IMG/VR virus record: IMGVR_UViG_3300017989_000234
Location: 1-36,947 of that record
Reading direction: 5' to 3' (one strand)
Length of the DNA: 36,947 nucleotides
Source: a virus
Below are positions 239 to 32,648 of the stretch, piece by piece (the stretch's first letter is position 1; every line of letters starts with the position of its first letter). A program made the translations under genes and the position numbers. The notes under the pieces are model-generated. The model was not told the origin of the DNA, made no database searches, and saw only the letters and a list, made by a program, of their open reading frames with translations.

Positions 239-2165
239 ATGGAAACAATATTAGCAAAAGCAAATATAACAGGTGGAAGCCTTTGGAGTGAAAACTATAC
301 TCAAGATAGTGAAACTACTTCTACTACACAAAGTTCTACTATTCAAGCTAAGGCTAGTATTAAATCTACCCAATTAAATACAATTCAAGCAAAAGCCAGA
401 ATTCAAGTAGGAGGAGTTGCTCAAACTATTCAAGCTAAAAGTAATATAAAAATTACCACTTCTTCCGTTGTTTCAGGAAAAGCAGATATACTGAATACTC
501 AAGATACTAATATCCAAACTAAAGCTAACATAAGAATTACTTCTTCTTCTAATATCCAAGCTATTGGTAGAATTGAAAAATCACCTTTAGATACTATTGA
601 GGCAAAAGCCAGAATTCAAGTAGGAGGCGTAGGACAAACTATACAGAGTAAAGCAGATATTAAATTATTAGGAGTTATCCAAACTGTCCAAGCTAAAGGA
701 AATATCAAAAATACTTTTTCAAATAATATCACTTCACAAGCCAGAATAGAAAAAACCATTCCTGTCAATATACAGGCAATAGCAAATTTAAAAATAACTA
801 CTGTTCAAACTATTCAAACAAAAAGCAGAGTTCAGGTTGCTGGCATAGGCACTACACTTCAAGCAAAAGCAGATGTGAAACTTACTGCTACTTCTTCTAT
901 TATAGCAAAGGCTTCCATTAAACTTCTTGGAGTATCTACTTTAATAGAAGCTAAGGCTAATATTAAAATAACAAGCTCTTTTAATATAGATGTGAAAGCT
1001 AATTTGAGGATAATTGCTTCTTCAATTATACAAAGCAAGGGAAATATTAGAGCATTCCAAGGAGAAATTATTTCTTCAAAAGGCAGAGTATTAGTAGGCG
1101 GAGTAGGCAATACAATACAAGCTAATGCAGATATAAAGAAAATGAATAGTTCAAATTTACAAGGACTAGGAAGAATACAAAAGACAGAAAGCTATACTAT
1201 ACAAGCCTTAGCAAATTTGAAACTTACTTTTTCTCCCGATATAGAAAGCAAGGCTAATATTAGACAAACTCAAGGTGTTTTAATTAATTCTTTAGCTAAC
1301 TTGCGTAGTGTTCAAAGTGAACTGATAGAAACAAAAGGAAGAATATTGTTAAGTGGAGAAGGTCAGAGTATCCAAGTAAAATCAAGCATAAGAAAAATGG
1401 CTTCTACTGCTATTGAGGCAAAAGCTAATTTGAGAATGACAGATTCTCCAACTATTCAGAGCAGAGCTAATATCAAACAGACTCAAAGTACTTCTGTTAG
1501 TGCTTTAGCGAGAATAGAAATAAGCAGTATTAGCCCGATAATACAAGCCAAAGCAAATTTACTGATAACTAATAGTAAAACCATTGAAGCTAAAACATCT
1601 GTAAAGAAAGAAACTACTCAAAGCATTCAAGTAGGAGGCTTTATAGAAATTGTTTCAGAAGCAGTTCTTCAAGCTAAAGCAAACATATTAATAACTACAC
1701 TCCAAACAATACAAGCATTAAGTAGTATAATTTTAACTCAAGAAACAGGTATCCAAGCAAAAGCAAATATTTTAGTTGAATATTCTGAAATTTTAGAAGC
1801 TAAAGGAGCTATCTTAAAAACAGTTGCACAAACTATTGATACAAAAGGAGCTATTGTATTTACTCCAAGTTATTTGATATCTGCAAAAGCCAGTTTGTTA
1901 ATAACTTCTTCTCAATTAACATCTGCTTTGGCGAGAATTCAATCAGAAACTCAAATTACAATTTCAGCTAAAGGGTCTATTCAATATTTAGGAGAACACA
2001 CTATTATGGCTCTCGCTAGAATCACTATTACTTCTTCTTCTAGTATTCAAACGAAAGCAAGAATTCAAGATGCTGATTTAACTAAAAGTATTCAAGCAAA
2101 AGCCAGAATAACAAAAGAAGAAGAATCTACTTCAATCCAAACTAAAGCAAACATCTATGCAGTAA
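239..2165 (+). repeat. Coding tandem repeat array 1 (14-15 residue units, about 42-45 bp)
   Basis: Roughly 40-45 degenerate units fill this stretch in one reading frame. The unit core reads x-I-Q-A-K-A-x-I-K; two unit types alternate irregularly: a 14-residue form ending in a polar turn such as K-x-T-x-S, and a 15-residue form containing A-R-I-Q-V-G-G-V. At the DNA level the units have diverged, but some segments are nearly identical, such as those starting near 388 and 602 that encode KARIQVGGV. Frame is kept throughout, so this is a protein repeat and not a CRISPR or satellite array. Confidence 0.9.
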
Positions 2166-2842
2166 GATATTTAACAGTAGCAGAATTTAAAGCAACTACT
2201 CTTATTAATACAGACGGCTATACTGATGAAGAATTACAATTGTATTTAACTAGAGGACAATCTATGGTAGATGCTTGGTTAGGCGGAAATATTGGATATA
2301 GCCAAAATGTAACAGAAGATATTAGAGTAATGTATGATTATCCAAAGAATGGAATAGCTATCCAGCTTCCAAAAAGACCTATAATTTCTATTTCAGAAAT
2401 TGTAGTTACTTATGGACCAAGTTCTACTATTACTTGGGATACTGCTTCTAAAATAGCAAATTGGAGAATAAATGAAGGAGTTGGTTATATAGAATATTAT
2501 GGACTTGCTTTAGGTGATTATGTTCTTAATATCTGCCTACGCGACCCGATGGCTTCTAATATAATTCCAATGGCTAAAGTAACTTATACAGCAGGATATA
2601 CTACTATCCCTGCGGATGTGAAAAGAGCTTTGGTTATTTTAACAGAACAGTTAATCAGAACTGATGAAGGAGAAGATAATGAGCTTTCTTCAGTAGCTAT
2701 TGGCAATTACAGAGAAAGTTATAGAAAAAGTATTGGAATTAAGGGGCTTGGAGTAATAGGTGGAACTGACCAAGTAGAGAGATTATTAAGACCTTATAGA
2801 CAGCCTGGTCAAACTATGTTTACTTACGGTCCATTAGGGTAA
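239..2842 (+). CDS. Giant repeat protein fused to a head-tail adaptor-like domain (867 aa)
   Basis: Residues 1 to about 640 are an almost unbroken array of a 14-15 residue repeat with the core T-I-Q-A-K-A-N-I-K followed by a short polar turn. Alternate residues are hydrophobic (I, A, A, I), as in a beta strand with one buried face, and Lys/Arg recur on the other face. From about residue 643 (YLTVAEFKATT) the sequence changes: a helical segment with EELQLYLTRGQSMVDAWLGG, a strand region IQLPKRPIISISEIVVTYG, then YTAGYTTIPADVKRALVILTEQLIR. This matches phage head-tail connector (gp6/gp15-like adaptor) proteins, which form a ring under the portal; such proteins are usually only 100-220 aa. Gene position fits, since stopper, tail-completion and tail-terminator homologues follow. 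No Met lies just before the adaptor domain, so the fusion is probably translated whole. The fibre role is inference; the adaptor call is by pattern only. Confidence 0.75.
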   Translation: METILAKANITGGSLWSENYTQDSETTSTTQSSTIQAKASIKSTQLNTIQAKARIQVGGVAQTIQAKSNIKITTSSVVSGKADILNTQDTNIQTKANIRITSSSNIQAIGRIEKSPLDTIEAKARIQVGGVGQTIQSKADIKLLGVIQTVQAKGNIKNTFSNNITSQARIEKTIPVNIQAIANLKITTVQTIQTKSRVQVAGIGTTLQAKADVKLTATSSIIAKASIKLLGVSTLIEAKANIKITSSFNIDVKANLRIIASSIIQSKGNIRAFQGEIISSKGRVLVGGVGNTIQANADIKKMNSSNLQGLGRIQKTESYTIQALANLKLTFSPDIESKANIRQTQGVLINSLANLRSVQSELIETKGRILLSGEGQSIQVKSSIRKMASTAIEAKANLRMTDSPTIQSRANIKQTQSTSVSALARIEISSISPIIQAKANLLITNSKTIEAKTSVKKETTQSIQVGGFIEIVSEAVLQAKANILITTLQTIQALSSIILTQETGIQAKANILVEYSEILEAKGAILKTVAQTIDTKGAIVFTPSYLISAKASLLITSSQLTSALARIQSETQITISAKGSIQYLGEHTIMALARITITSSSSIQTKARIQDADLTKSIQAKARITKEEESTSIQTKANIYAVRYLTVAEFKATTLINTDGYTDEELQLYLTRGQSMVDAWLGGNIGYSQNVTEDIRVMYDYPKNGIAIQLPKRPIISISEIVVTYGPSSTITWDTASKIANWRINEGVGYIEYYGLALGDYVLNICLRDPMASNIIPMAKVTYTAGYTTIPADVKRALVILTEQLIRTDEGEDNELSSVAIGNYRESYRKSIGIKGLGVIGGTDQVERLLRPYRQPGQTMFTYGPLG

Positions 2843-2870
2843 TTAAATAAATTTTTAATAAGGAAACGAA

Positions 2871-5800
2871 ATGTCTGTTAATATTCCAAACACAGAAGAT
2901 TTATCTGCTGAGATTAAAAGTAAACATACTGTAAAAAGAAATACTTTTCATAGAAAAGCAAAAGAGGATAAGGCAGATAATATAAATATTGAAATTGGGG
3001 ATTCAAAGCAAGATGACTTTTATCCTCAATTTAAGCTAACCCGCTGGGATAATGAGGGTAATTTTTCCGTGAGATATATAGATGAGTATGAAAATGCTGA
3101 AGTAATTACAGATAAGGAAAAAATTATATGGAGAAAGAAAAATAATGGTTTAGAAATTCATTTTTATGAAATAGAAGACAATCCTAATTGTCCTGAAGGA
3201 GGGACAGAAATGGAAGTTGTTCTTTTAAAAAAGCCAGAAAGTAATATTTTTGAATTTTCAATAAATAATAAGGATTTTGATTTTATTTATCAGCCACCTT
3301 ATGATGAGCAAAATAATCCTGAAGATGAGGCAAGAGTGGTTACTAAAACAGAAACAACTGGTTATGACAAAGATGGAAAAGTAGTAGCACATACTCCCGA
3401 ACATGTTATTAAATCTTATGTTGTTGCAAGTCATAGTCATATTAACGGTGGAAATTACTCTTTAGGAGGAGGCAAAAATTATAGATATGGCAAAGTTGGT
3501 AATATTTACAGACCAAAAGTAAAAGATAGTAATGGCAATGAATGTTGGGCAGAATTGTTTATAGATAGTCCTCACGCAAGAAATCACCCTACGCCTAATA
3601 CTATTACAGAAGGATTAGGCAAAATGACAATTACAGTTCCACAGAAATTTTTAGATAAAGCAGTTTATCCTGTATTTATTGACCCTACTTTCGGACAAAC
3701 TGGAACAGGAGATGCTGAATTTGATTTAGGTGGTGATTCTTATATAGGTCATTATGGAAATCCAGGTGGTTCTTGTAATATACAAAGTTTGACTGCGGCA
3801 ATAGGAGATGATTGGCTTTCCGGAACAGATGTAAAAGGTGCTTTATATTCTACTGCTGGTGTTTTAGATAGTGGTTCAGAAACAGTAGTATTAGATACTG
3901 GAACAGCTACTCCTGCTGAATTTACTTTTACAATAACAGGAGGTTTTATAGGGTCAAATAGAGTTTATGTTATTCCTTTTCAAGCGGATGCAAGCGTGTT
4001 CTCTGTATCTCTCAGAAGATATGCTGATACAGGGACTAATTCTTATTTTGAAAATACTGGAGTGCCTTGGGGTACTTGGGTTACACCAGTAACATGGGAA
4101 AGGTCAGGAAACAGATATTGTACTTATGCTACTTATGCTGATATACGAACAGAAACTATCCAAGCAAAAGCAAGTGTAAAAAAGACATTTTCTACTTCTA
4201 TTTCTGCTAAAGCAATAATTGGGGTAGCTACTCAAACCATTCAGGCTAAAGCAGATATAAAAATAGTTAATGCGGAACGAGTTTTACAGGCAAAAGCGAG
4301 TATTCGGATAACAGATTTAACCAAAACAATACAAGGCAAAGCCAATATTGTTAAAGCAGGAAGAAACTGGCTAGCAGGCTGGGCAAAAAGAATAGAAGTT
4401 TCAGTAGTAAGTTCTGGCAGAATTGATGCTAATCAAACTCATTTTCCTTTATTGTTAAAATTAGGAACTTCTGTTGGTATAAATAATGATGATATTTCTG
4501 CAATTTTTGATGAAGTTGGTGCTAATAGTCAAAAAATTGCTATTACTAAATCTGATGGAAGTACAGAGATATACGCAGAGATAATTTCTTGGGACAATGG
4601 TTCTGAAACAGCTTTCTTATTTGTTTCTAAATCTGACTTAATTTTATCAAATTCTGCAAATACCAAATTATATTTTTATTTTGATAATACTCATGCAGAT
4701 AATACTACTTATATTGGCACTACTATTGGTTCTTCTCCAGCAACAAATGTATGGGATAACAATTTTGTTAGTGTGTGGCATTTCCAAGAAACTACAGGTG
4801 ATTATAAAGATTCTACCGGTAATCATGATATATTAGATGCAAATATAACAATTACTTCAAGGGCAGGGAATGGTAAGATTGGTCCTAATGCTCCTGAATT
4901 TGACGGAATAAATGATTTTCTTGAAGTAGCTCATCATGCAGATTTTAGTTTGATTAATTATACATTAGAAATTACTTGTGAACCTGATGTTGTAGATGAC
5001 TGGAGGACTATAATAGCAAAAGGCATTTCTGGAACATTTAATTATTATACTGTATTTGATGTTGATGTATTAATTAATAGAAATGGGTGGACTGGCACTG
5101 ATGAAGTAGAATCTTCTACTACATTTACAACAGAATGGACTAATCTTGTAACTATTTGTGATGATACAAAAGAAGAAATGAGATTGTATAAGAATGGTGC
5201 TGAAGTTTCATATGCACAGCAAGATTGGGGTGGTTCAGCAAATACTAATACAGATGATGTTCAAATTGGTCAAAATGATGAATGGGGAGAATTCTTTGAT
5301 GGCGTAATGAATGAGATTCGTATCTCTAATATTGTTAGAACTGATGCTTATCTTAAAGCTAACAGCCATAGTCTTAATGATAATTTAGTTACTTGGAGTG
5401 ATGTAACCACTCAAACTGATATACAAGCCAAAGCAAATATTAGAGCTACTCAAAGTACTACTATTCAAGCTAAAAGTAGGATTCAGGTGGGTGGGGTTAC
5501 TCATACTATTCAAGCAAAAGCAAGGATAGAAAAAACTGAAATTTATACAATCCAAACTAAAGCAAGAATTCAGGTGGGGGGAGTCACACAAAGTATTCAA
5601 ACAAAAGCAAATATTAAAGCTGTTCAAACTACTCAAATACAAGCTAAAAGTAGAGTTCAAGTTGGTGGGGTTGCTAAAAATATACAAACAAAGGCAAATA
5701 TCCGAGCTACTCAGATTACTACTATCCAAGCTAAAGCAAACATAAAAATAATTAATGTAGAATGCACTTTACAAACAAGAGCAAAGCTTACTGGTGGAAG

Positions 5801-8357
5801 TCTTTGGAGTATTGGTTATGCTCAAGGAATTGCTACTACTGCTACTACTCAAACTAATACTATCCAAGCAAAGGCTCATATCACTTTAGTTTATATTGAA
5901 ACAATCCAAGTTAAAGCAAATTTAAAAATAACTACCAATCAAACAATACAAGCAAAAGCAAGAATACAAACTGGCGGAGTAGTTCATACTATTCAGGCAA
6001 AAGCAAGAACACAAAGAACTGAAAGTTTTAATATAGAAGCAAAGGCTCGCATACAAAGAACTGAAATTCTAACAATTCAGGCAAAGGCTAATATTAAAGC
6101 AACTTCTTCCATAAATATTTTAGCTAAAGCAAATATAAAAGTAACTACTCAAACAAATATCCAATCTAAAGCACGAATTCAAACAGGTGGGGTAGGAAAA
6201 AATATCCAAGCCAAAGCTAATATTAAAAAGATACAAGAAGTTACAATTCAAGCAAAAACGAGTATTGCTTTGACTTCTTTTTCAATTATTTTAGCAAAAG
6301 CAAATGTAAAAGGAAGTATTACAGAAAGTATTCAGGTTAAAGCAAGAATCCAAATTGGAGGAGTTATTCAATCTATACAAGCTAAAGCAAATATTAAAGC
6401 TGTTCAAACAACCTCAATAAATACCAAGGCTCGTATAGAACAATTATCTTCTACTAACATTCAAACAAAAGGCAGAGTATTAAAAGGAGGAGTAGGAAAA
6501 ACAATTCAAACAAAAGCTGATATAAAACTTTTAGCAATTTCTACTACTATTGAAGCAAAAGCGAGAATTGAAAAAACTGTTACTGATACTATCCAAGCCA
6601 AAGCTCAAATAAGAATTACAGGCAATCCTTATATTAATGTTAAGGCAGATATTAAAAAGACTACTGATAAAACTTTAGAAGCTAAAGGAGCTATCTTAAG
6701 AACAGAAACAACAACTATTCAAGCAAAAGGAAATATCCATTTTGTTTGGATTTCTCCTATTTCTGCTAAAGCAAATATTAGACAGGCTGTTTCTGTATCT
6801 TTAGAAGCAAAAGCAAGAATTCAAATTGCTGGTATATCTACTACAATTTCTGCTAAAGGAAGAATAGAGAGGACAGAAAGTAGTCTAATATTAGCCAAAG
6901 CAAGAATAGAAAAAACAGAGAGTTATAATATAGATGCTCAAGCAAGAATAGAAAAAACAGGGAGTTTAACTATCCAAACAAAAGGAAATATCCGAGCTAC
7001 TCAAATTGTTCAAATTCAAACTAAAGCACGAATCTTAATTGCTGGAGTAACTTTTATTATCCAAGCCAAAGGAGATATTAAATTGGCTACAAGTAATTTA
7101 ATTGATGCTAAAGCAAGAATTGAAATTTTAGGCGGTATTTATATTTCAGCCATAGCTAATATAAAAAGAACACAATTTTCAGAAGTTGCAACTAAAGCAA
7201 GAATAGAAAGAACTGAGCCTTATATTATTGATGCTAAAGCAAGAATTGAATTAACAAGTTCCGTTGATATACAAGCTAAAGGAAGAATTCAAGTTGGGGG
7301 TGTAAGCTATAATATTAATACAAAGGCAAATATAAAAAAGACACAAAGCTCTGATGCCCAAGCCAAAGGAAATATCAAAGCTGTTATCAGTAATACAATT
7401 GAAGCTAAAGGGCGTATAGAATATTTAGGAGAAATATTTATCCAATCTAAGGCAAGTATAAAAATCTTTGGAGTTCAAACAAATATCCAAGCCAAAGGTA
7501 ATATTAGACTGACTACTGGACGAGAACTATTAGTTAAAGCCAGAATTCAAAAAACTGAACTTCATAATATAGATGCAATAGCAAATATAAAAGTAACCAC
7601 TATCCAAACCATTGACGCAAAAGCAAGCATATTCAAAGAACTTCCCGGCATATTTATTTTAGCATTAGCAAGAATTGAGAAAACTGAAAGTTTTAATATA
7701 GAAGCAAAGGCTGATATACTTAAAGAACATATTTCTCTGATTTCTTCCAAAGCAAGAATAGAAAAAACAGAAATTATCAGTATAGAAGCAAAAGCAAGTA
7801 TCTTTATAGAATTGCCTGGAATCACTATTTCAGCTAAGGCGAACATTCAAAAGCCTTCTATTATTGTTACTATCCAAGCTAAGGCAAGAATAAAATTAAC
7901 AAGTTCTGTATCAATTCTAACAAAAGCACACATTCATGGAATATTAGTAAGACCCTTAGGTATAAAAAGAAGATTTCTTAATACAACTATTATGATTAAA
8001 AGAAAAACAGTTGCTAAAGATGCTATTGGGGATTTGACAGATTCTTGGAATAATATACATGACCAAATTCCTGCTACTATTCAACAATTAACTGGAGATG
8101 AAATAGCAAGTATGCAAGGTAAGCTATATAATTCTACACATAGGGGTTTTGCGCCTAAAGCTGTTATTAATGGTGGGAATATAACCTATATTGATATAAG
8201 AGAAGGTGATATAATAGAAGATGAAGAAGAGAATATAGATTATAGAGTAAAATTAGTAGAAAATTTAAAACAGGCAAATAAGAATGTTAATGGCACAAAA
8301 TATCATCATTACGAGTTAATTTTAGAAAAATTAAACGATACTAGATATGTTAGTTAA
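2871..8357 (+). CDS. Giant mosaic neck protein: virion domain, repeats, DUF2341, LamG lectin, repeats, head-closure-like domain (1828 aa)
   Basis: Layout by residue: 1-290 is a domain seen in many uncultivated-phage virion proteins (LTRWDNEGNFSVR, FDFIYQPPYDEQ, GKVGNIYRPKVKD, VYPVFIDPTFGQ); 290-425 looks like a jelly-roll; 427-493 holds four or five copies of the IQAKA repeat; about 498-630 is DUF2341-like (KRIEVSV, FPLLLKL, TKLYFYFDN); about 634-836 is a LamG/concanavalin-like lectin (VWHFQETTGDYKDSTG, LEVAHHADFSL, DGVMNEIRISNIVR); 846-1690 carries some 55-60 more repeats; about 1705-1828 resembles phage head-tail joining (stopper, gp16-like) proteins (TIMIKRKTV, PATIQQLTGDEI, IREGDII). Stoppers are normally about 110 aa and independent. 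An in-frame ATG at 7992 could start a free stopper. The stop overlaps the next gene by 11 bases. Functions as host-binding neck fibre and closure protein are inference. Confidence 0.75.
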   Translation: MSVNIPNTEDLSAEIKSKHTVKRNTFHRKAKEDKADNINIEIGDSKQDDFYPQFKLTRWDNEGNFSVRYIDEYENAEVITDKEKIIWRKKNNGLEIHFYEIEDNPNCPEGGTEMEVVLLKKPESNIFEFSINNKDFDFIYQPPYDEQNNPEDEARVVTKTETTGYDKDGKVVAHTPEHVIKSYVVASHSHINGGNYSLGGGKNYRYGKVGNIYRPKVKDSNGNECWAELFIDSPHARNHPTPNTITEGLGKMTITVPQKFLDKAVYPVFIDPTFGQTGTGDAEFDLGGDSYIGHYGNPGGSCNIQSLTAAIGDDWLSGTDVKGALYSTAGVLDSGSETVVLDTGTATPAEFTFTITGGFIGSNRVYVIPFQADASVFSVSLRRYADTGTNSYFENTGVPWGTWVTPVTWERSGNRYCTYATYADIRTETIQAKASVKKTFSTSISAKAIIGVATQTIQAKADIKIVNAERVLQAKASIRITDLTKTIQGKANIVKAGRNWLAGWAKRIEVSVVSSGRIDANQTHFPLLLKLGTSVGINNDDISAIFDEVGANSQKIAITKSDGSTEIYAEIISWDNGSETAFLFVSKSDLILSNSANTKLYFYFDNTHADNTTYIGTTIGSSPATNVWDNNFVSVWHFQETTGDYKDSTGNHDILDANITITSRAGNGKIGPNAPEFDGINDFLEVAHHADFSLINYTLEITCEPDVVDDWRTIIAKGISGTFNYYTVFDVDVLINRNGWTGTDEVESSTTFTTEWTNLVTICDDTKEEMRLYKNGAEVSYAQQDWGGSANTNTDDVQIGQNDEWGEFFDGVMNEIRISNIVRTDAYLKANSHSLNDNLVTWSDVTTQTDIQAKANIRATQSTTIQAKSRIQVGGVTHTIQAKARIEKTEIYTIQTKARIQVGGVTQSIQTKANIKAVQTTQIQAKSRVQVGGVAKNIQTKANIRATQITTIQAKANIKIINVECTLQTRAKLTGGSLWSIGYAQGIATTATTQTNTIQAKAHITLVYIETIQVKANLKITTNQTIQAKARIQTGGVVHTIQAKARTQRTESFNIEAKARIQRTEILTIQAKANIKATSSINILAKANIKVTTQTNIQSKARIQTGGVGKNIQAKANIKKIQEVTIQAKTSIALTSFSIILAKANVKGSITESIQVKARIQIGGVIQSIQAKANIKAVQTTSINTKARIEQLSSTNIQTKGRVLKGGVGKTIQTKADIKLLAISTTIEAKARIEKTVTDTIQAKAQIRITGNPYINVKADIKKTTDKTLEAKGAILRTETTTIQAKGNIHFVWISPISAKANIRQAVSVSLEAKARIQIAGISTTISAKGRIERTESSLILAKARIEKTESYNIDAQARIEKTGSLTIQTKGNIRATQIVQIQTKARILIAGVTFIIQAKGDIKLATSNLIDAKARIEILGGIYISAIANIKRTQFSEVATKARIERTEPYIIDAKARIELTSSVDIQAKGRIQVGGVSYNINTKANIKKTQSSDAQAKGNIKAVISNTIEAKGRIEYLGEIFIQSKASIKIFGVQTNIQAKGNIRLTTGRELLVKARIQKTELHNIDAIANIKVTTIQTIDAKASIFKELPGIFILALARIEKTESFNIEAKADILKEHISLISSKARIEKTEIISIEAKASIFIELPGITISAKANIQKPSIIVTIQAKARIKLTSSVSILTKAHIHGILVRPLGIKRRFLNTTIMIKRKTVAKDAIGDLTDSWNNIHDQIPATIQQLTGDEIASMQGKLYNSTHRGFAPKAVINGGNITYIDIREGDIIEDEEENIDYRVKLVENLKQANKNVNGTKYHHYELILEKLNDTRYVS
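4153..4350 (+). repeat. Short coding repeat block before the DUF2341/LamG insert
   Basis: Four to five units of the same IQAKA-type repeat (TIQAKASVKK, SISAKAII, TIQAKADIK, VLQAKASIR, TIQGKANIV). They sit between the jelly-roll and the DUF2341-like domain, so the lectin module is flanked on both sides by this repeat. Confidence 0.85.
5410..7940 (+). repeat. Coding tandem repeat array 2 (14-15 residue units)
   Basis: Some 55-60 units of the same repeat as in the preceding gene, all in one frame. Units with RIQVGGV cluster early (near 5480, 5565, 5655) and units with ARIEKTE cluster late (near 6900-7770), suggesting expansion by local duplication. Near 5789-5820 the array contains a GGSLWS segment that also occurs at the very N-terminus of the upstream repeat protein. 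Confidence 0.9.
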
Positions 8358-8769
8358 AATAGAAGTAAAAGGAGATAAAGCAGTAGTAAATTCTTTAAAA
8401 AGAGTAAATCAAAATTATTCTAATGCCATTAAATCTGCTGTCAGAACTTCAGGATTACAAGTAGAAAAAGCCGCAAAAATAAATAGTCCAGTAAAAACAG
8501 GTAATTTAAGAAGAGGTATATTGTCAAAAGAATCCCAACAAGGAAATAAATATATTGCTAGAGTGGGTCCTGATATAGCTACTGCTCCTTACGCAATTTA
8601 TGTGGAAGAAGGACATGCCCAACAGCCTGGGAGATTTGTTCCAGCATTAGGAAAAAGATTGGTTGCTTCTTGGGTAACAGGTAAATGGTATATGGCAAGA
8701 ACAGGAATTCAAATGCGAAAAAGAGTAGAGAATAATTTAAAAAACGCATTCAAGCAAATTAAGATATAA
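8347..8769 (+). CDS. HK97 gp10-like tail-completion/neck protein
   Basis: A 140-aa protein of the size and pattern of the HK97 gp10 family, found between head-closure and tail-terminator genes in many siphoviruses. Visible hallmarks are the N-terminal IEVKGDKAVVNSLKRVN, a central KAAKINSPVKTGNLRRGI (the conserved P-V-x-T-G-x-L-R motif), then YAIYVEEGHAQQPGRFVPAL, with the typical Y-x-x-x-V-E-x-G-H strand. The C-terminus is a basic helix (RKRVENNLKNAFKQI). It starts within the last 11 bases of the stopper fusion, which suggests translational coupling. Its likely role is completing the head-tail interface. Confidence 0.85.
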   Translation: MLVKIEVKGDKAVVNSLKRVNQNYSNAIKSAVRTSGLQVEKAAKINSPVKTGNLRRGILSKESQQGNKYIARVGPDIATAPYAIYVEEGHAQQPGRFVPALGKRLVASWVTGKWYMARTGIQMRKRVENNLKNAFKQIKI

Positions 8770-8935: not shown

Positions 8936-9361
8936 ATGTTCAATTTACAAAATTTAAAACAATTGATTTATGAAAAATTAGCTAATGATGCTACGCTGAT
9001 TGCTCTTTTGGGTGGGAATTCAAATATTTTTCATTTTCACCCACAACAAGCAAGTAATATTCCTTATCCGATAATTGTTTATAATATTTTAGGAATTGAA
9101 GATAATGTTTATGATTCAGATAGAGATGGGGGAATCAATGCCTGTATAATTAATATTGATATATTTTCTAGCAGTTCTACAACAGAAGAGGCAGACAATA
9201 TTGCAGATAGAGTATACGCCTTATTACACAATCAAAATCTTTCAAATACAAATGTCCTTGTTTATACTTGTTACAGGGATTATCAAGATGAAAATTTTGA
9301 TGAATCCAGCCAATGCTGGAGAATAAATGCACACTATGAAGTAACTAATGTAGCAAAATAA
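8936..9361 (+). CDS. Tail terminator-like protein (gp17/DUF3168-like)
   Basis: A 141-aa protein in the position of the siphovirus tail terminator. It begins with a helix (LKQLIYEKLANDATLIALLGG), followed by IPYPIIVYNILG, a strand with ACIINIDIFSSS, a helix TEEADNIADRVYALLHN and a last strand WRINAHYEVTNV. This helix-strand-strand-helix-strand plan, with P-Y-P-x-I near residue 43 and an F/I-x-I-D-I-F strand, is that of the family that caps the growing tail tube and joins it to the neck. Gene order (stopper, gp10-like, terminator, tube protein) supports the call. Similarity is by pattern only. Confidence 0.7.
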   Translation: MFNLQNLKQLIYEKLANDATLIALLGGNSNIFHFHPQQASNIPYPIIVYNILGIEDNVYDSDRDGGINACIINIDIFSSSSTTEEADNIADRVYALLHNQNLSNTNVLVYTCYRDYQDENFDESSQCWRINAHYEVTNVAK

Positions 9362-9973: not shown

Positions 9974-10531
9974 ATGTCAATTACAGTAACAAACATCAAT
10001 ACAGGTGGAGCAGTAGTTACTCTTGGTGGAACAGTTAATGCTGTTGATGTAGATGGTTTTTACATCGGAACATCTGGAGGAACAGATGTTGGGTGTACTT
10101 CTGGTGGAGTAACTGTTACATACAGTTTTGAAACTAGAGATATCTTCTGCGACCAAGTAACTGCCCCTGTTGAAACAGCTATCACTAATGAAACAGCATC
10201 TATCAGATTTGATATGTTGGAGAGTGATGCTGACAATCTTCAGTTAGCTATACAGCAGTGTACTTATACTCAAGATGCTGGAGTAGCTAACAAAATTGGT
10301 GTTGGTGGAATCATAACTGTTAATTTTACGCCTTTGATGCTTGAAATTACAGATAATGATGATACCTCACTAAAAACTACTTGGACTTTCTTTAAGACAC
10401 TTTCAGGTGGAATTGAAACTAATTTTGAAAGAGAGAATCCAACAGCAGTAACAGTTACCTTTACTGCTTATGCAGATACTACTCACGCCTCAGGACATCA
10501 GTTATTCAGTGTTAATGAAGCATTGTCCTAA
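9974..10531 (+). CDS. Probable major tail (tube) protein
   Basis: A 185-aa beta-rich protein placed just before the tail assembly chaperones, the standard place of the siphovirus tube protein. Repeated T/G/V-rich strands (AVVTLGGTVNAVDVDGFYIGT, TYSFETRDIFCDQV), a central helix DMLESDADNLQLAIQQ and the C-terminal strand PTAVTVTFTAYAD fit the tube-protein fold, in which an E/A-x-L-x-x-L helix packs on a beta sandwich. Its codon use is richer in GC-ending and CC/AC codons than its neighbours, as often seen for highly expressed phage structural genes. An exact AAGTAAAAAGT motif lies just before its ATG. Confidence 0.75.
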   Translation: MSITVTNINTGGAVVTLGGTVNAVDVDGFYIGTSGGTDVGCTSGGVTVTYSFETRDIFCDQVTAPVETAITNETASIRFDMLESDADNLQLAIQQCTYTQDAGVANKIGVGGIITVNFTPLMLEITDNDDTSLKTTWTFFKTLSGGIETNFERENPTAVTVTFTAYADTTHASGHQLFSVNEALS

Positions 10532-11379: not shown

Positions 11380-14266
11380 TAATTTGTCAGGAACAGTAGC
11401 TAAAATTGAAAAAAATGTTAAACAGATGTCTTCAGGTGTAAGTACTTCTATGAAAAAAGTGGAAGCAAGTTCTAAGCAAATGTCAGAAAAAACTGTTTCA
11501 AGCCTACAAAAGATGAATGAATCTTTTGGTGCATTGTCAACTAATATGCGAAGAATTGGTGCATTAGTTGGGTCTTTTTATGCTATCCGAAGTGCCGCAA
11601 TCGCCTTAGGGGCAACTGCAGAAAGTTTCAAAGATTTGAATGAGAATATGGCTTATACTAATACTATTGCTCAATTAACAGATGAACAATTAGCAGAATT
11701 GACAACTGAAGTGGAAGATATGGCACTTAGAGTGGGAAAAAGTGCAGGAGAATTAGCCAGAGGTTTATATGATGTATATTCTTCAGGATTTCAAGGAGCA
11801 GAAGCTCTTGATGTATTGGAAGTAGCTTCTAAAGGAGCAATAGCTGGAATGACACAAACAGAGGTAGCCGCAAGAGGTTTAATGGCTGTTATGAATGCTT
11901 ACAATAGAAAAACGGGTGCTGACGCAGTTGATATTATGGATAGTATGTTTAAAACAGTAGATAAAGGTGTAATTACTTTTGAGCAATTAGCTAGTGAGAT
12001 AGGTTCAGTAGCTTCTGTTTCTTCTGAATTAGGTATTCCTTTTAAAGATATTAGTGCCGCAATGTCTTTATTAACTTTAAGCGGAATAAGTGCTTCTGAA
12101 TCCGCTACTGCTTTAGAAAGTCTAATGAGGAGTATTATAAAGCCATCTGACCAAGCAAAAGAAGCAATAGAGAAATTAAATGAACGAAATAAGGATTTGA
12201 ATTTTCAATGGGATGTAGCAACTTTAAGGGTAAGAGGATTACAAGGAATGATAGAAGATTTAAGCAGAGCAACTCAAGGAAATTATGAAGTTGTTGGAGA
12301 AATCATACCTCAAATCAGAGGTTTGAGAGCTGAGATGGTTTTAGGTTCTGATGATGTTAAAGGTTTTAATAATATGTTAGAAGAACAGGAAAAAAGAATG
12401 GGGGCAACTGACAGAGCTTACAAAGAAGCAAATAAGAGTATTAGAAGGCAGTTAGAAGATACAAAAGCTGATTGGGATAAGTATCAGAGAAAAATAGGAG
12501 AAGTAGTAGCTCTGCTTCAATTACAATTATTTAAGACTTTAGTTGAAGTAGCAGATTATTTAAGCGACCATAAAGAAGAAATTTTTGATGTTATACACGC
12601 ATATGGAACTTTTTTAAATTCAATAACAACTACAATTGGAAAACTCATAGAACTTACAAAAGCAACTGACGATTTTGTAAAAAATAATCGGTTATTGAGT
12701 TGGCTATCTAAAGCTATTGAAGGATTTGCAAAATTAAATAGAGTAATGCTGGATGTTGCTTCTGGTTTTTCTTATTCTATATCAAAATTAGAAAATACAT
12801 GGACAAACACAGCTAAAGCTATTGGAGAAAATGCAGATGCTATTGGTGAGGCTTCAGTAGGATATAGAGAAAAACTTTTAGAAGATGCTCAAAAATTACA
12901 TTTAATACAACAAGAAGCACAAAAAGAAGGTGACACTGAAACTTTAGATAGAGCTAAAAATTTAGAAGAAAAAATATATAACTTAAAAAAGTTATACTCT
13001 GATAAATTAGTTATTTTAAATAGAGATGCTGGGGATAGAAATTTTGCAGAAGTTAACCGACAAATAATTGCTTTGAAAGGATTAATTGAAGGAGAAATGA
13101 AAGCCTTAGCAGATGTAGGAAAATTGACAGGAGGTTTGAAATTAATGGGTGTTTCGCCTGAAGGAATTACTACTCCTGAATATCCTGGTTTCCCTTCAAG
13201 AGAAGATTTATTGGGACCTGACCTTGATAAAAGTGCAGAAAAAATTAAAAAAACTATTGAAACGATTACAAAGGATATTAGTGAGTATTATGCTAATTTA
13301 GGAAGTTACGCCAGTAAAGAAGCAGAAGCATTAGAAGAACAAGCAGACGCTTTTGAAGATTCTGCTCTTACTTTTTCCAGATATTTAGAAGATATAAATA
13401 CTGATTTAACAAGAATGGAGGAAGAACATAAACAGATGATTGCTGATATTAATGATGATATAAGTAAAGAGAATAGAAACTTTAAAGAGTCAATGGATGA
13501 CAGAGCAAGGAAGTATAAAGAAACTATGGACGATATGAGAAGAAGTCATACAGATAAAGTGGAAGATTTACAGCATGAATTAGATTTAGAAATAGGCATG
13601 GGATTGCGTGCTGATGAGGAAAAAATTAAAGAATTAAGAAAAAGATTAGAAAGAGAAAATAGAGAATTTAATATTAAAACAGAAAGAGAACAAGAAGAAA
13701 AGGAAAGAGAGGATTTCAGAGATAGAAGGTCTAATGAAGAAAAGTTAGCAGATTTTACTACAAGAATGGAAAGAGAAAAAGAAGCATACCAAGAAAGAAC
13801 AGATGATATTAGAAAAAATCTTGAAAGAGAACGAATGGATTATGCTAATCAACAAGCAGATATTTTAAAAAGAACAAATGAGAATTTACAGAAGATTACT
13901 GAAAGCTATCAAAAAGCATTTAAGAAAATTTATGAATCTATTAGAGAATCAGGCGTTCCTTCTCTTTTAGCTATGTTGCCTGGATTAATGGATGTTTCAA
14001 TGGACAAAGCAATTACAGGTGTAAATATTCCGAGAAATTTAATGGCAGAACAAGAGTTTGTTAAAAATTGGGGTGGCTTATATGGCAGATTGCCTACTGC
14101 TGAAGAAATCAGTATGGGTGTGTATGGCTCTACTCAAGGTCCTAATGTTCAAGTTAATATAAATAATCCTATTGTAACTGACCAAGATTTAATTAATAGT
14201 TTAGTTGACCAAGCTCAACAACAACTTGGAGAAGCTCTTGAGTTAGCTAATAATGGAGCTAATTAA
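11342..14266 (+). CDS. Tail tape measure protein (974 aa)
   Basis: This is the longest gene after the chaperones, as expected for a tape measure. Residues about 70-300 match the TP901-type core of phage tail tape measures (ALGATAESFKDLNENMAY, AGELARGLYDVYSSGFQGAEAL, KGAIAGMTQTEVAARGL, FKDISAAMSLLTLSG). After a middle section with a few hydrophobic stretches, residues about 660-880 form a long, highly charged coiled coil rich in E, K and R. The protein sets tail length: at about 1.5 angstrom per residue, 974 residues correspond to a tail of about 145 nm. No lytic transglycosylase or peptidase domain is seen. The gene begins inside the end of the GT frame. Confidence 0.9.
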   Translation: MASKIDIVIQAVDNLSGTVAKIEKNVKQMSSGVSTSMKKVEASSKQMSEKTVSSLQKMNESFGALSTNMRRIGALVGSFYAIRSAAIALGATAESFKDLNENMAYTNTIAQLTDEQLAELTTEVEDMALRVGKSAGELARGLYDVYSSGFQGAEALDVLEVASKGAIAGMTQTEVAARGLMAVMNAYNRKTGADAVDIMDSMFKTVDKGVITFEQLASEIGSVASVSSELGIPFKDISAAMSLLTLSGISASESATALESLMRSIIKPSDQAKEAIEKLNERNKDLNFQWDVATLRVRGLQGMIEDLSRATQGNYEVVGEIIPQIRGLRAEMVLGSDDVKGFNNMLEEQEKRMGATDRAYKEANKSIRRQLEDTKADWDKYQRKIGEVVALLQLQLFKTLVEVADYLSDHKEEIFDVIHAYGTFLNSITTTIGKLIELTKATDDFVKNNRLLSWLSKAIEGFAKLNRVMLDVASGFSYSISKLENTWTNTAKAIGENADAIGEASVGYREKLLEDAQKLHLIQQEAQKEGDTETLDRAKNLEEKIYNLKKLYSDKLVILNRDAGDRNFAEVNRQIIALKGLIEGEMKALADVGKLTGGLKLMGVSPEGITTPEYPGFPSREDLLGPDLDKSAEKIKKTIETITKDISEYYANLGSYASKEAEALEEQADAFEDSALTFSRYLEDINTDLTRMEEEHKQMIADINDDISKENRNFKESMDDRARKYKETMDDMRRSHTDKVEDLQHELDLEIGMGLRADEEKIKELRKRLERENREFNIKTEREQEEKEREDFRDRRSNEEKLADFTTRMEREKEAYQERTDDIRKNLERERMDYANQQADILKRTNENLQKITESYQKAFKKIYESIRESGVPSLLAMLPGLMDVSMDKAITGVNIPRNLMAEQEFVKNWGGLYGRLPTAEEISMGVYGSTQGPNVQVNINNPIVTDQDLINSLVDQAQQQLGEALELANNGAN

Positions 14267-14273
14267 AAATTAT

Positions 14274-15038
14274 ATGAGTTCAACAATTACTTACAATTCA
14301 TACAATTTACAAACTGCTAATATTATAACAGAGAAAATTTTGCATACTTCTGCTCCTTCAAATGAAGTATTACTTCAGAGAAAAGTAAGAAGAGATGGGA
14401 GTGTGTTAATGTCTAATTATTGGACTCAGAAGAGGATTCAATTAACAGGACATATTTTAGGAAGTTCTGTATCTGATTTAGATAGTAAAATTGATACATT
14501 GAAACAAAATTTAGTAGGAGAAAATCAAAATTTAGATATTGGATATGCAGGAGGAACAAGAAGATATATTGCTACTTTAGACTCTTTAACTATTGATAGA
14601 GAGCATTTCCATACTTCCTGGGTGCCTTTTGCTTTAGAATTTATATGTGCTGACCCTTTTGGCAGAGCTACAAGCTCTACACAAGAAACCTTAACAGGAC
14701 AAACTTCTTCTCCTTTTACTAAAGTATTTACTATGGGGGGGAGTATTGGTGCTTATCCTGTCATTACTCTTGATTTTACTACTGGAGATAATGTAACAGC
14801 AGTAAAAATAGAAAATGAAACCACAGGAGATTATATCACTATTACTAGAAGTTTTTCTAATGGCGAATCTTTAGAAGTTGATTGTGATAATTTAACTGTG
14901 GAAGTAGATAGTTCAGCCGTAGATTTTACTGGGGTATTTCCTGAGTTTGTAGTCGGCTCTAATTCTTTAAAAATTACAGTAACGGGAACTCCTTTTGACA
15001 TTGATTTAGATATTACCTATACAAATTTATATTTATAA
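14274..15038 (+). CDS. Distal tail protein (Dit-like)
   Basis: About 254 aa from the ATG at 14274 (MSSTITYNSYNLQ), which lies 7 bases after the tape-measure stop; an earlier in-frame ATG at 14253 would overlap that gene by 14 bases. The beginning fits siphovirus tail-component (Dit) proteins: an N-terminal beta sandwich with RKVRRDGSVLMSNYWTQKRIQLTGHILG, a helix DLDSKIDTLKQNL, then FHTSWVPFALEFICADPFG, the usual end of the N-terminal domain. The C-terminal half is a beta-rich domain (GSIGAYPVITLDF). Dit forms the hexameric ring between tube and tip. It is followed after one base by the hub protein. Confidence 0.8.
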   Translation: MSSTITYNSYNLQTANIITEKILHTSAPSNEVLLQRKVRRDGSVLMSNYWTQKRIQLTGHILGSSVSDLDSKIDTLKQNLVGENQNLDIGYAGGTRRYIATLDSLTIDREHFHTSWVPFALEFICADPFGRATSSTQETLTGQTSSPFTKVFTMGGSIGAYPVITLDFTTGDNVTAVKIENETTGDYITITRSFSNGESLEVDCDNLTVEVDSSAVDFTGVFPEFVVGSNSLKITVTGTPFDIDLDITYTNLYL

Positions 15039-15039
15039 T

Positions 15040-18033
15040 ATGGCATCAAAAAATCATAAACTTTCATATAAACTCTATCAGCCAGATGGAACTTACTTAA
15101 AACTGCTTACTGAAGTGGGTAATATTTTATCTGAATTTCAAGTTAATAAAACTATAAATGGCGGAGTTAGTAATTTAAAAGTTATTATTAATGCTCCTAT
15201 TGATGATTATGATGAATACGATTCTGTAAAAAATCCTAATGGGGTTATTAAGTATGGCAATAGATTAAAAGTATATCTAAATGATGATTTTAATACAGAT
15301 ACACTTATTTTCTATGGATATCTAGTTAGGGTTAGCCCTCAATATGGAAATAATCAAGAAAAAGTAGAGTTAACTTTTTATGGGGCAATATCAAAATTAA
15401 GTAATGATTATTATAGAACTCACTCTGACCCAATAGATTTTTATGTTCCTGAATCAGCAATTTCTACTTCTACTATTATAAAAAATATTAGTGATAATTA
15501 TATAGACAATATTTCCAATTCAATGATTAGTTATACTTGGGGAGTAACTATTGATGATTGTGCAAATACTGTTTCATATACTTTTGATAGAGTAAAACAT
15601 TTAGACTCATTGAAAAAAATACAAGAGTATTTACCTGCTACTTGGTATTGGTATATTGATGCGGGCGGAGTTGTTTATGTTAAAGATAGTGCAAGTTCTA
15701 CTCAACATAGTTTTACTATCGGAAAAGATATTTCTGAAATTAAAGCACATAAATCAGCAGAGAGCATTGTGAATTATTTTTTCTTGTGGAATGGTCGTTC
15801 AACTGCTGATGCTTCTTATGTTTATGAAGAATATAAAGATGCTACTTCTCAAAGCAATTATGAAGTGATGACTTTATTTCAGTTGGATTCAGAAGTATTA
15901 ATTGATTCTGTGGCAGATATAAGAGGAAATGCTTTAATCACAAATAAAAAAGACCCTAAACAACAACTAACTATTGAATTGACAGATGAATATGATTTAG
16001 CAAGTATAGAGCCTGGACACAGAGTTTTAATTAGAAATATCAGAGACGGAAATCAAACTACTTTTCAGGATAATTTAGTTATAAAAAGAGTTTCTTATAA
16101 AATAGATAGTGCTTTAGTAGAGCTTGACCAAATAGGACATGATTTAACGAAATACACTTCTATGGAAGAAACTGCAGTAGAGCTTTCTATTATACAGGCA
16201 CAGCGTTCCACCGAAGGAATACAAGCAGGAGATACCCCAATAACTGAAGCTAATATTGAATATTCAGGAGGTAATTTTATAAATGAAAATATTATAACTG
16301 CTTATACAGGAATAGGAGATAATGTAATAGGATTAAATGGAACAGATGCTATTTTAAGGTCTTATGGCAAAACAGGTTTTAATAATTCAAGTATTGGCTT
16401 TTGGATGCAAAAAGACACATTTAATGATGTCTTTTTTGAATTATACGCAGATAGTGATAATTATTTAAGATATAATTCAAATACAGGAAAATTAGAACTT
16501 GCAGGAGATATTACACTCGGTCCAAGTACTACAATTACTTGGAGTCAGATTTCAGATGCTAATCCACCTAATAGTGCTGATTTAAAAAATGGTGGCTGGA
16601 CTAATAGCATGGACGATTTAATAAATGGAAATGTTTCTGGCGGAACTTTTATTTCAAGTACAACTGTCTATTCACCTATTATTGCAGGCAGTAGCGGTTA
16701 TTTTAGAGATAGCATTGAAATAGGTGCTTCTGGTATAGGAGGAGTATTAAAATCTTATAACAAATCAGGTTATGGAAATGGTTCTTCTGGTTTTTGGCTG
16801 GAATATGAATCAGGAGGAGATATAAGATTTGAATTATATGATGATGCTACTCATTATATACGATTTGATACTGGAGGTTCTCCTGCTTTGATAATTAGAG
16901 GAGGAGTAAATGCAGATGATATTTATACAGGTACTTTATCTGCGGATAGAATAGCCTCTACTTCCATAGAAGCTGGTAAATTAGGAACAACTGTTATTTC
17001 TGGTGGAAAAATAATTACTGGTTTATTGACTGCGGATAATATACAAGCAGGTACTTTATCAGGTAGAACTGTAAAAAGTTCTTCTGGCAATTCAAGAATA
17101 GAATTAATTAATGGAGATTATTTAGATTTCTATTCTGGCGGAGTAAGAAGGGCAAGATTAAGAGGAACTACTTTAGGTGCTGGTGGTATTCAATGCACTG
17201 CTGGAGATTTTTTTATCCCAAATAATAGGTCTTATTGGATTGCTGATTCTACTGGTAGTGCTACTAAGTATGGGGGTATTGGAATTACAAGTGGAAATCT
17301 TCTTTGGATTACTTGCGGAACAACTGATAATTTTTATATTAAAAATAATGCTCAAACAGTTAATCTTCTTACTGCTACAACAACACAAACTTACGTACCT
17401 CAGTTAATTTTTAGTACTGGTGAATACATTAATTCTAATTCAGGAAGTAATGATATGCGTTATTATGCAGGAGATAATCATGAGTTTTATCAAGGAGCTA
17501 CTATAAAAGCAATTATAGATGAAAATATTTGGACAGCAGGAGATTTACAAGCAAGTGGCTCTAAACCTTTTGTTATTCCTCATCCTGACGGAAGTGATAG
17601 ATTTCTTAGATACACAGCTCAAGAAAGTCCTGATGTTTGTGTACGGTGTAGAGGTAAAGCTAAAACAGGAGTAGATAAAAAAATTACAGTTATTTTGCCA
17701 AATCACTTTTATTTGGTAACTGAACCAACTGGTTTAATAACTGTTAATTTAACTCCAATTGGTCCAGCACATATATTTTTAGAGAAAGAACCTACTAATG
17801 AAAAAATTTTTGTGGAGAGTTCTGAAACAGAAGTGGATTTTTTCTATGAAGTAGTGGCTGTGAGAAAAGGATATTTAAACAGTATAGTTGAATTAGATGA
17901 AACAGATGTAAATTTAACAGAAGGAGATAAAAAAGTTATTACTACTATAAAAACTATTAAAAATAAAAACAAAGATTCACAAGACCATTATGATAAAATG
18001 AAAGATGAAGTAGATGACCTTTTTAAAAAATAA
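15040..18033 (+). CDS. Tail-tip hub and receptor-binding fibre protein (997 aa)
   Basis: Residues 1 to about 380 look like the hub (Tal/gp27-like) domain of siphovirus tail tips: a beta-rich start (YKLYQPDGTYLKLL), GNRLKVYLND, TLIFYGYLVRV, then LDSLKKIQEYLPATWYWYIDAGGVVYV and GHRVLIRNIRDG. The middle (about 400-800) contains fibre-like glycine-rich strands and the phage motif IYTGTLSADRI followed by LLTADNIQAGTLSG, which occurs in many receptor-binding tail proteins. Around residues 840-950 is a conserved terminal module (KPFVIPHPDGSDRFLRY, VRCRGKA, TVNLTPIGPAHIFLE) seen at the tips of large phage fibres. The C-terminus is a charged helix. The protein most likely anchors the tip and binds the host. 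No peptidase motif is visible. Confidence 0.8.
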   Translation: MASKNHKLSYKLYQPDGTYLKLLTEVGNILSEFQVNKTINGGVSNLKVIINAPIDDYDEYDSVKNPNGVIKYGNRLKVYLNDDFNTDTLIFYGYLVRVSPQYGNNQEKVELTFYGAISKLSNDYYRTHSDPIDFYVPESAISTSTIIKNISDNYIDNISNSMISYTWGVTIDDCANTVSYTFDRVKHLDSLKKIQEYLPATWYWYIDAGGVVYVKDSASSTQHSFTIGKDISEIKAHKSAESIVNYFFLWNGRSTADASYVYEEYKDATSQSNYEVMTLFQLDSEVLIDSVADIRGNALITNKKDPKQQLTIELTDEYDLASIEPGHRVLIRNIRDGNQTTFQDNLVIKRVSYKIDSALVELDQIGHDLTKYTSMEETAVELSIIQAQRSTEGIQAGDTPITEANIEYSGGNFINENIITAYTGIGDNVIGLNGTDAILRSYGKTGFNNSSIGFWMQKDTFNDVFFELYADSDNYLRYNSNTGKLELAGDITLGPSTTITWSQISDANPPNSADLKNGGWTNSMDDLINGNVSGGTFISSTTVYSPIIAGSSGYFRDSIEIGASGIGGVLKSYNKSGYGNGSSGFWLEYESGGDIRFELYDDATHYIRFDTGGSPALIIRGGVNADDIYTGTLSADRIASTSIEAGKLGTTVISGGKIITGLLTADNIQAGTLSGRTVKSSSGNSRIELINGDYLDFYSGGVRRARLRGTTLGAGGIQCTAGDFFIPNNRSYWIADSTGSATKYGGIGITSGNLLWITCGTTDNFYIKNNAQTVNLLTATTTQTYVPQLIFSTGEYINSNSGSNDMRYYAGDNHEFYQGATIKAIIDENIWTAGDLQASGSKPFVIPHPDGSDRFLRYTAQESPDVCVRCRGKAKTGVDKKITVILPNHFYLVTEPTGLITVNLTPIGPAHIFLEKEPTNEKIFVESSETEVDFFYEVVAVRKGYLNSIVELDETDVNLTEGDKKVITTIKTIKNKNKDSQDHYDKMKDEVDDLFKK

Positions 18034-19395: not shown

Positions 19396-19584
19396 ATGAA
19401 ATATTTTTTAGTATTCTTGAATATTATTACTATTTTTTTAGCAATAGGAATGTTTAGAAAAGCAATAGATATTGTTGAAGCAAAAATAGCAGTTAAACTG
19501 CTAATAATTATTTTAATAGCTTGTCTTACTGCTTATCTTTTATTTTTTGTAACTGTTCCACTTTCAATTTGCTTAGAGCTGTAG
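19396..19584 (+). CDS. Small membrane protein at the end of the late operon (62 aa)
   Basis: Starting at ATG 19396 the product MKYFLVFLNIITIFLAIGM has a first membrane span, a short amphipathic stretch (FRKAIDIVEAKIAV) and a second span (KLLIIILIACLTAYLLFFV). An earlier ATG at 19363 lies inside the hairpin stem and is less likely. Two spans next to a holin-like gene suggest a second holin or antiholin. Its last 59 bases overlap the end of the RuvC-like gene on the other strand. Confidence 0.55.
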   Translation: MKYFLVFLNIITIFLAIGMFRKAIDIVEAKIAVKLLIIILIACLTAYLLFFVTVPLSICLEL

Positions 19585-20017
19585 AGCCGATAGCAATAGC
19601 ATCAGCTTCATCTTCTCCTAAATCTTTTTTATTAAACTCTAATTTGACTATTTTTTGATAATCTTGTTTTTTGCTTCTAGGAGGAACAGAATAATGACTT
19701 CTTACTTCTTGAGGGCTAATATCTATTATTTCAGAATTCTTATTAAAAATAATACAAAGGATAACTCCTCTTGCTTGTCCTAGCTTTAATCCTGATTGTG
19801 GATTTCGCCCTATATATGGAGTTTCTATAGCAAAATGATTAATATGTCCTTTATTGCTTAAAAACGCTTCTACGGCTTGTTTTAAGGCTCTGAGTCGGGT
19901 ATATAAAGGAGTTTTAGGATTGAATTTAAGTTGTTTTGACTCAATTAGTTTCTTATCTTCAAAGAAAGCAATACCGGCATTATTAGTGCCGGGGTCTATG
20001 GCTATTAATTTATTCAT
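19526..20017 (-). CDS. ruvC: RuvC-like Holliday junction resolvase
   Basis: 163 aa, close to the normal 160-175 aa of the family. It begins with AIDPGTNNAGIAFF (catalytic Asp 8 of the RNase H-type fold), has HFAIETPYIG (Glu 65) and ends with DEADAIAIGSTAL (Asp 136 and Asp 139), giving the full acidic set of RuvC. It cuts four-way DNA junctions during phage recombination or resolves branched DNA before packaging. It is the last gene of the - strand unit, downstream of the VanY-like gene, and its end converges with and overlaps the late operon. Confidence 0.85.
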   Translation of the reverse strand: MNKLIAIDPGTNNAGIAFFEDKKLIESKQLKFNPKTPLYTRLRALKQAVEAFLSNKGHINHFAIETPYIGRNPQSGLKLGQARGVILCIIFNKNSEIIDISPQEVRSHYSVPPRSKKQDYQKIVKLEFNKKDLGEDEADAIAIGSTALSKLKVEQLQKIKDKQ

Positions 20018-32354: not shown

Positions 32355-32648
32355 TTAATTTTCAAAAATACCTATAATGTTTTTTAATTCTACAAAAAAT
32401 TTATTATCTTCTAAAGTATATCCTTCTGTAAATTTAACTTTCTTTCCTTTCTTTAATAAATTAAGAATAATATTACCGTTATGGTCTTTGAACATTTCTC
32501 TAACTTTTTCAGTTAAATAAGAAGAATTAGAAATTATTATTCCTTCATTTTTTACTTCATTACCTCCTGATACTTCTATTCCTGCGGTATTTGTTTTCTT
32601 TTCTATTTGTATAATTACTCCATCAATAGGAGTGAATAGTTTTGACAT
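32355..32648 (-). CDS. groES: GroES-like co-chaperonin (97 aa)
   Basis: 97 residues, the normal GroES length. It begins LFTPIDGVIIQIEKKTNTAGIEVSGG, matching GroES strand 1 and the mobile loop (x-A-G-I-x-x-S/T-G) that docks onto GroEL; later LLKKGKKVKFTEGYTLED and VELKNIIGIFEN match the core (V-G-D-x-V-x-F) and C-terminal strand (D-I-x-A-I). Identity to cellular GroES is clearly low but the length, loop and end fit. It should cap the GroEL encoded at 28251-29861, with three unrelated genes between. It lies 11 bases after the preceding gene. Confidence 0.75.
   Translation of the reverse strand: MSKLFTPIDGVIIQIEKKTNTAGIEVSGGNEVKNEGIIISNSSYLTEKVREMFKDHNGNIILNLLKKGKKVKFTEGYTLEDNKFFVELKNIIGIFEN

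Follow-up and report, generated by a model that had tools for sequence, protein, structure and literature searches.

The head-tail adaptor of phages is a 12-mer and the stopper is a 6-mer (PMC10747895; PMC10491603), and the adaptors described so far are about 100 to about 310 residues long (PMC10491603). Long fibers at a siphophage neck are known from the lactococcal P335 phage TP901-1, in which the neck passage structure (NPS) surrounds the adaptor; 12 anchoring domains have been modelled, six trimers have been proposed, and the trimers are predicted to measure 48 nm (PMC10747895). The whiskers of phage T4 (gp wac) and the collar spikes of Vibrio phage XM1 also emanate from the neck and are credited with sensing or binding the environment (PMC10491603). 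The collar, whisker, and NPS fibers are all separate proteins: the NPS is anchored by its N terminus, and the T4 and XM1 structures are neck-bound collar proteins that are not fused to the adaptor or the stopper. The locus described here resembles the NPS in encoding putative long fibers for a siphophage neck, but its stalks are fused to the N-terminal side of the connectors themselves. We found no sequence relation between the NPS and these stalks, and no repeat of the kind found in them has been reported for the T4 whiskers or the XM1 spikes. Neck fibers are already known; what sets this locus apart is that the stalks are joined covalently to the proteins of both connector rings and that the stalk repeat has no name. 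Our literature search found nothing on connector-fiber fusions or on this repeat.

The window that we analyzed is an entire IMG/VR virus record of 36,947 bases, and its opening gene is cut at the start of the record. The virus is an uncultivated, siphovirus-like phage. It encodes a phage amidase and a VanY-type carboxypeptidase, which point to a bacterium with peptidoglycan as the host. Both of the long open reading frames singled out by a sequence-only reading of this DNA are present, encoding proteins of 867 amino acids (aa) (positions 239 to 2842) and 1828 aa (2871 to 8357). The genes that follow include those for a Neck1/HK97 gp10-like tail completion protein (8347 to 8769; PF04883, E = 1.9e-8; phrog_5, E = 2.5e-19), the tail terminator (8936 to 9361; PF11367, E = 1.5e-9; phrog_78, E = 5.9e-10), the major tail tube protein (9974 to 10531; phrog_885, E = 9e-8; phrog_2175, E = 3.5e-17), the distal tail protein Dit (14253 to 15038; phrog_33, E = 2.2e-22), and a tail protein (15040 to 18033). 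The order adaptor-stopper-Neck1-terminator-tube agrees with that in relatives. All of these genes, and the domains described below, are on the + strand, as is the truncated gene at positions 1 to 225, whose 3' end encodes a terminal fn3-like domain (Pfam Purple acid phosphatase N / fn3-like, E = 5e-6 and 0.0036). By its position this gene is the counterpart of the first of two tandem fiber genes in relatives, and a similar arrangement upstream of the neck genes was seen in two of them (G006 and L097).

Elsewhere, the window encodes a GroEL-type chaperonin (28251-29861; PF00118, E = 4e-65) and a 97-aa open reading frame (32355-32648) that looks co-chaperonin-like by eye, with no Pfam match. There are also genes for a uracil-DNA glycosylase (34068-34865), a ParB N-terminal domain (25978-26829), a RuvC-type resolvase (19526-20017), and an SPFH/Band 7 domain protein (31300-32109; E = 1.5e-31). 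To our knowledge, SPFH/Band 7 proteins are uncommon among phages.

The C terminus of the 867-aa protein had been proposed to be an adaptor, and profile searches bear this out. Residues 642 to 867 alone (positions 2162 to 2839) match phrog_442 (E = 1.8e-18), and the match spans profile positions 87 to 267 of 270. The protein shares this C-terminal domain and its gene position with the phrog_442 adaptors, but in place of the N-terminal domain of relatives it has an array of 43 repeats (residues 3 to 645, positions 245 to 2173). The adaptor region is acidic, unlike the basic array. At its tip the array lacks a globular domain, a point against the fiber reading proposed below. The gene lies directly upstream of those for the stopper and Neck1, as it does in two relatives, G004 and G012. 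The short adaptor of G004 (242 aa) is 58% identical to the window domain and matches phrog_442 with an E value of 3.7e-16; that of G012 (324 aa) matches with an E value of 1.2e-23 and had no relative among annotated phages. The fusion had been thought unusual, and indeed all other adaptors that we found in IMG/VR are short: an adaptor scan gave 13 loci, and none of the loci read has a long array.

The 1828-aa protein had been described as repeats followed by a stopper. Both parts are present, but this description overlooked an acidic N-terminal region of 425 aa and a LamG domain. The N-terminal region (residues 1 to 425, positions 2871 to 4145, pI 4.9) matches no Pfam family; residues 110 to 376 resemble a protein of phage MW202647 (28%), and BLASTP found no homology between this region and the N-terminal region of the large repeat protein of G004. 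Next come five repeats (4155 to 4370) and a region resembling gp33 of a Methanoculleus virus (4371 to 5405; tblastn E = 5e-24), which includes the LamG (ConA-like lectin) domain (residues 680 to 826, 4908-5348; PF13385, E = 1.5e-12; 48.3 bits versus a gathering score of 27.6). Behind it lie the main array of 58 repeats (residues 850 to 1694, positions 5418 to 7952) and the stopper domain (residues 1699 to 1828, positions 7965 to 8354).

The stopper domain matches PF05521 (Phage_HCP) with an E value of 5e-4 and 21.1 bits, which is under the curated cut-off of 25; the same family was matched by 7 of 12 stopper orthologues at E ≤ 0.1. An AlphaFold2 model, made with 11 orthologous stoppers aligned, is a beta-barrel with most of the domain at pLDDT 78 to 92. 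This model matches SPP1 gp16 with a VIA Z score of 10.9 and an rmsd of 2.8 over 105 residues, and Foldseek gave an E value of 2.3e-4 against 7z4w_1 (SPP1 gp16). Its top match in the PDB is SF1141 (Z = 11.4), and further matches include neck proteins of Milano, 7-7-1, Chi, GTA, and others; the best matches are nearly all phage neck proteins. Predicted viral stoppers and head-tail joining proteins in BFVD match with E values down to 7e-7. The earlier assignment of this C terminus as a stopper therefore holds, on the basis of the SPP1 gp16 fold and a gene position between the adaptor and Neck1, where the short stopper of G004 also sits. The last 130 residues share fold and gene position with the PF05521/SPP1 gp16 stoppers, but in front of them the protein is longer by about 1,700 residues, which include 63 repeats and the LamG domain. 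Because tblastn found no second adaptor or stopper within the record, the giant proteins would be the connectors of this virus, barring a further copy in the upstream sequence that the record lacks.

The sequence-only reading had put 40 to 60 repeat copies in each protein. A position-weight scan found 43 in the 867-aa protein and 62 to 63 in the 1828-aa protein (five ahead of the LamG region and 58 behind it); residue-shuffled proteins scored 3.2 units on average and never more than 9. Successive repeats are spaced by 14 residues 71 times and by 15 residues 27 times. The consensus is T-I-Q-A-K-A-[RN]-I-[KEQ], in which I-A-A-I occupy positions 2, 4, 6, and 8, Lys fills position 5 in 80 to 96%, position 7 is Arg or Asn, and position 9 is Lys, Glu, or Gln; position 11 is Thr in the 14-residue form. 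The strand I-x-A-K-A-x-I has one hydrophobic face, with Gln, Lys, and Arg/Asn on the other. The arrays are basic, as had been noted, with pI values of about 10.2 (867-aa protein) and about 10.5 (1828-aa protein). It was also correct that the repeat belongs to no named family, as it matched nothing in Pfam, PHROGs, NCBIfam, or the PDB sequences. We did not find it in annotated phages and plasmids, and single-protein scans of IMG/VR gave no close relatives of the arrays or the adaptor domain. Among 84,980 species genomes, the sole match to the repeat DNA pattern, a Treponema MAG (L064), has no repeat open reading frame and was dismissed as chance.

The invariant residues of the repeat are encoded by several synonymous codons, and codon likeness among repeats is 0.46 at third positions versus 0.54 at first and second positions. 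Together with a longest exact DNA repeat of 31 nucleotides, these figures indicate an old, selected protein repeat and not a recent DNA expansion. Each array contains one GGSLW insert (positions 266 to 340 and 5790 to 5861). The two copies are identical at 21 of 37 aa and 80 of 111 nucleotides (nt) over the stretch compared, which we take as a sign of exchange between the arrays. We also considered a heterotrimer on the basis of array colinearity, but taken as a whole the arrays show none (the best diagonal scored 19.4, versus a shuffled mean of 22.9), which leaves the heterotrimer without support from this comparison.

Structure prediction, which the sequence-only reading had suggested as a check, gave the SPP1 gp16-like beta-barrel for the stopper domain and an all-beta fold at low confidence for the repeats. 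The input for the repeats was an alignment of 44 nine-repeat segments (AlphaFold2 monomer). The best model has a pLDDT of 68, the five models disagree (48.7 to 68.0), and no PDB structure matched below an E value of 0.6. The beta solenoid with a charged face that had been expected is not borne out beyond the all-beta prediction. The folds considered were a monomeric beta solenoid and trimeric fiber repeats (triple beta-spiral, YadA-type beta-roll); one strand per repeat and a one-sided hydrophobic face would fit a trimeric fiber as well as a small solenoid. In the PDB, heptad regions of coronavirus spikes gave weak matches to the repeat profile (best E = 1.5e-4), but a coiled coil is contradicted by the irregular 14/15 spacing, the Gly-Gly turns, and the all-beta prediction, and we regard the match as a composition effect.

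When IMG/VR was scanned with the DNA pattern and with an adaptor profile, the repeat turned up in roughly 18 virus groups that could be told apart (a count of loci). In most readable relatives, the neck genes are directly preceded by one or two genes for long repeat proteins. These free-standing proteins (G005, G006, G012, G014, L055, L056/L097, L061, L085, and L096) range from 559 to 3065 aa: 559 aa in G014, 678 in G005, 1485 and 1043 in G006, 1336 in G012 (5' truncated), 1363 in L096, 1543 in L055, 1919 in L061, and 3065 in L097, the last with 123 units. They share with the window proteins the repeat and the position beside the neck genes, and where the domain was typed (L061), a LamG-type domain lies on the N-terminal side (E = 1.7e-21), together with a Disaggr_repeat domain (E = 2.6e-12). 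They differ in being separate proteins, and the connectors stay short where seen (adaptors, 188 to 331 aa; stoppers, 125 to 143 aa). In G014 and G005, the repeat gene is followed by that for a 280-aa SU10-adaptor-like protein. No relatives of the repeat proteins and adaptors of this virus group were detected among 50,697 annotated phage records.

The repeat also occurs in tail-tip proteins (G012, with LamG; L055; L060; L061) and in an N-terminal extension of the G004 homologue of the window tail protein at 15040 to 18033, an extension that the window lacks. Given these occurrences, the repeat is best seen as a general modular stalk that is not specific to the neck. In some relatives, glycosyltransferase group 1/family 4 genes lie upstream of the fiber gene (L061:284-2355, L096:10315-12463, L046:1952-3028, L075:7067-8017); given this position, their products might glycosylate the Thr/Ser-rich repeats, which we offer only as a lead. 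Homing-endonuclease-like open reading frames surround the adaptor and stopper genes of others (L056:8992-9654, L058:1068-1613, L062:825-1376, L063:1265-1801, L096:2151-2933), and among these the NUMOD3 motif was found in L056 only.

The nearest relative, G004, is represented by four near-identical contigs. Its genes run from a 1492-aa repeat protein to the 242-aa adaptor and then a 151-aa stopper. The 1492-aa protein has 62 repeats and ends in a stopper-like domain that is 50% identical to that of the window. The arrangement is intermediate. In a tree, the window stopper domain groups with both G004 copies (100/100), with the order among the three left unresolved.

Single repeats are found on the short connectors of relatives. 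The short adaptor (L042:12967-13695) and short stopper (L042:12506-12961) of G004 each open with one repeat-like unit, which aligns with the final repeat in the arrays of the window. About ten relatives in the other branch have short stoppers that all finish with one repeat-like strand, A-K-A-x-I (L045:5005-5433, L055:7415-7846, L058:1600-2028, L063:1798-2226, and others), for example TVTSKARIS, TVTSKAKIV, or TLTSKAQIT. Several giant fibers likewise end in a single repeat past a non-repeat linker (WITAKARIRS, WVTAKAKIRH). The simplest reading of these sequences is that repeat units were swapped by recombination, which would have seeded the fusions in the window. The single repeat on the connectors may also be a docking site.

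These results lead us to propose that the two proteins are probably true connector subunits that are N-terminally extended by a modular repeat stalk and form neck-anchored adhesion fibers. The C-terminal domains would build the two rings, of which the adaptor ring normally has 12 copies and the stopper ring 6. The basic, beta-patterned arrays would stick out from the neck as stalks, with the C terminus in the ring and the N terminus outward, and the six stopper-linked stalks would bear the LamG domain and the acidic region at their far ends. From the LamG domain and the basic stalks, we infer that this end most likely binds glycans, either of the host surface or of its environment, before the tail engages. 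Fusion to the rings would probably have come about by recombination at the single repeat that short connectors already carried. Dozens of neck fibers had been predicted, but because stoppers are normally hexamers (PMC10747895; PMC10491603), about 12 + 6 = 18 chains would be expected. The sequence-only reading also left out the LamG domain, the fact that relatives encode free-standing fiber proteins, and the single repeats with which short connectors are tagged. An extension of the proposal, which we consider speculative and rather unlikely to hold in full, makes the single repeat a plug: free fibers would dock to it by strand stacking, the link would have become covalent on both rings in this virus, and the 12 + 6 stalks would form six mixed trimeric fibers with no separate collar protein.

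An unlikely alternative to connector-anchored fibers is that the arrays are synthesized but do not stay on the ring, so that cleavage or internal initiation yields short connectors and the full-length proteins are a minority or a by-product. Short connectors suffice in relatives, and the start at position 239 has no Shine-Dalgarno-like sequence; an internal in-frame ATG at 2006 (residue 590) has AGGAG 11 nt upstream and could give an additional, shorter adaptor of about 278 aa with about four repeats. The stopper, however, has no comparable start, since TTG 7812 has no Shine-Dalgarno sequence and ATG 7992 is inside the domain, and the repeats are conserved as protein while synonymous sites vary, as expected of a maintained product. 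We give slightly less credence to the possibility that the repeat proteins are decorations of the capsid or of the virion in general, for which the connectors are here just a convenient anchor. The location of the free fiber genes, after the head genes and before the adaptor gene, would fit this, as would the repeats beside LamG in the tail-tip proteins of other viruses; but both the window and G004 have arrays covalently joined to connector domains, and about ten relatives have short stoppers with a repeat strand at the end. That metagenome assembly wrongly joined separate fiber, adaptor, and stopper genes is very improbable: the contig is metagenomic, the region is repetitive, and the full fusion of both genes is in one contig only, but array collapse or mis-joining is unlikely because exact DNA repeats in the region do not exceed 31 nt, with just one repeated 31-mer; moreover, both joins are in frame exactly where the short genes of G004 bear their single repeat, and the stopper-array fusion recurs in the four G004-type contigs.

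The reading that we favor, connector subunits that carry their own fibers, has several consequences, provided that virions contain the full-length proteins. The rings that act as gatekeepers and keep the DNA in the head would double as the base of adhesion fibers, and host binding would be tied directly to the parts that open when the DNA is released. Core connector genes would also tolerate large N-terminal grafts. In this group of uncultivated viruses, an unnamed repeat is found again and again as the stalk that links lectin-like domains to several virion proteins.
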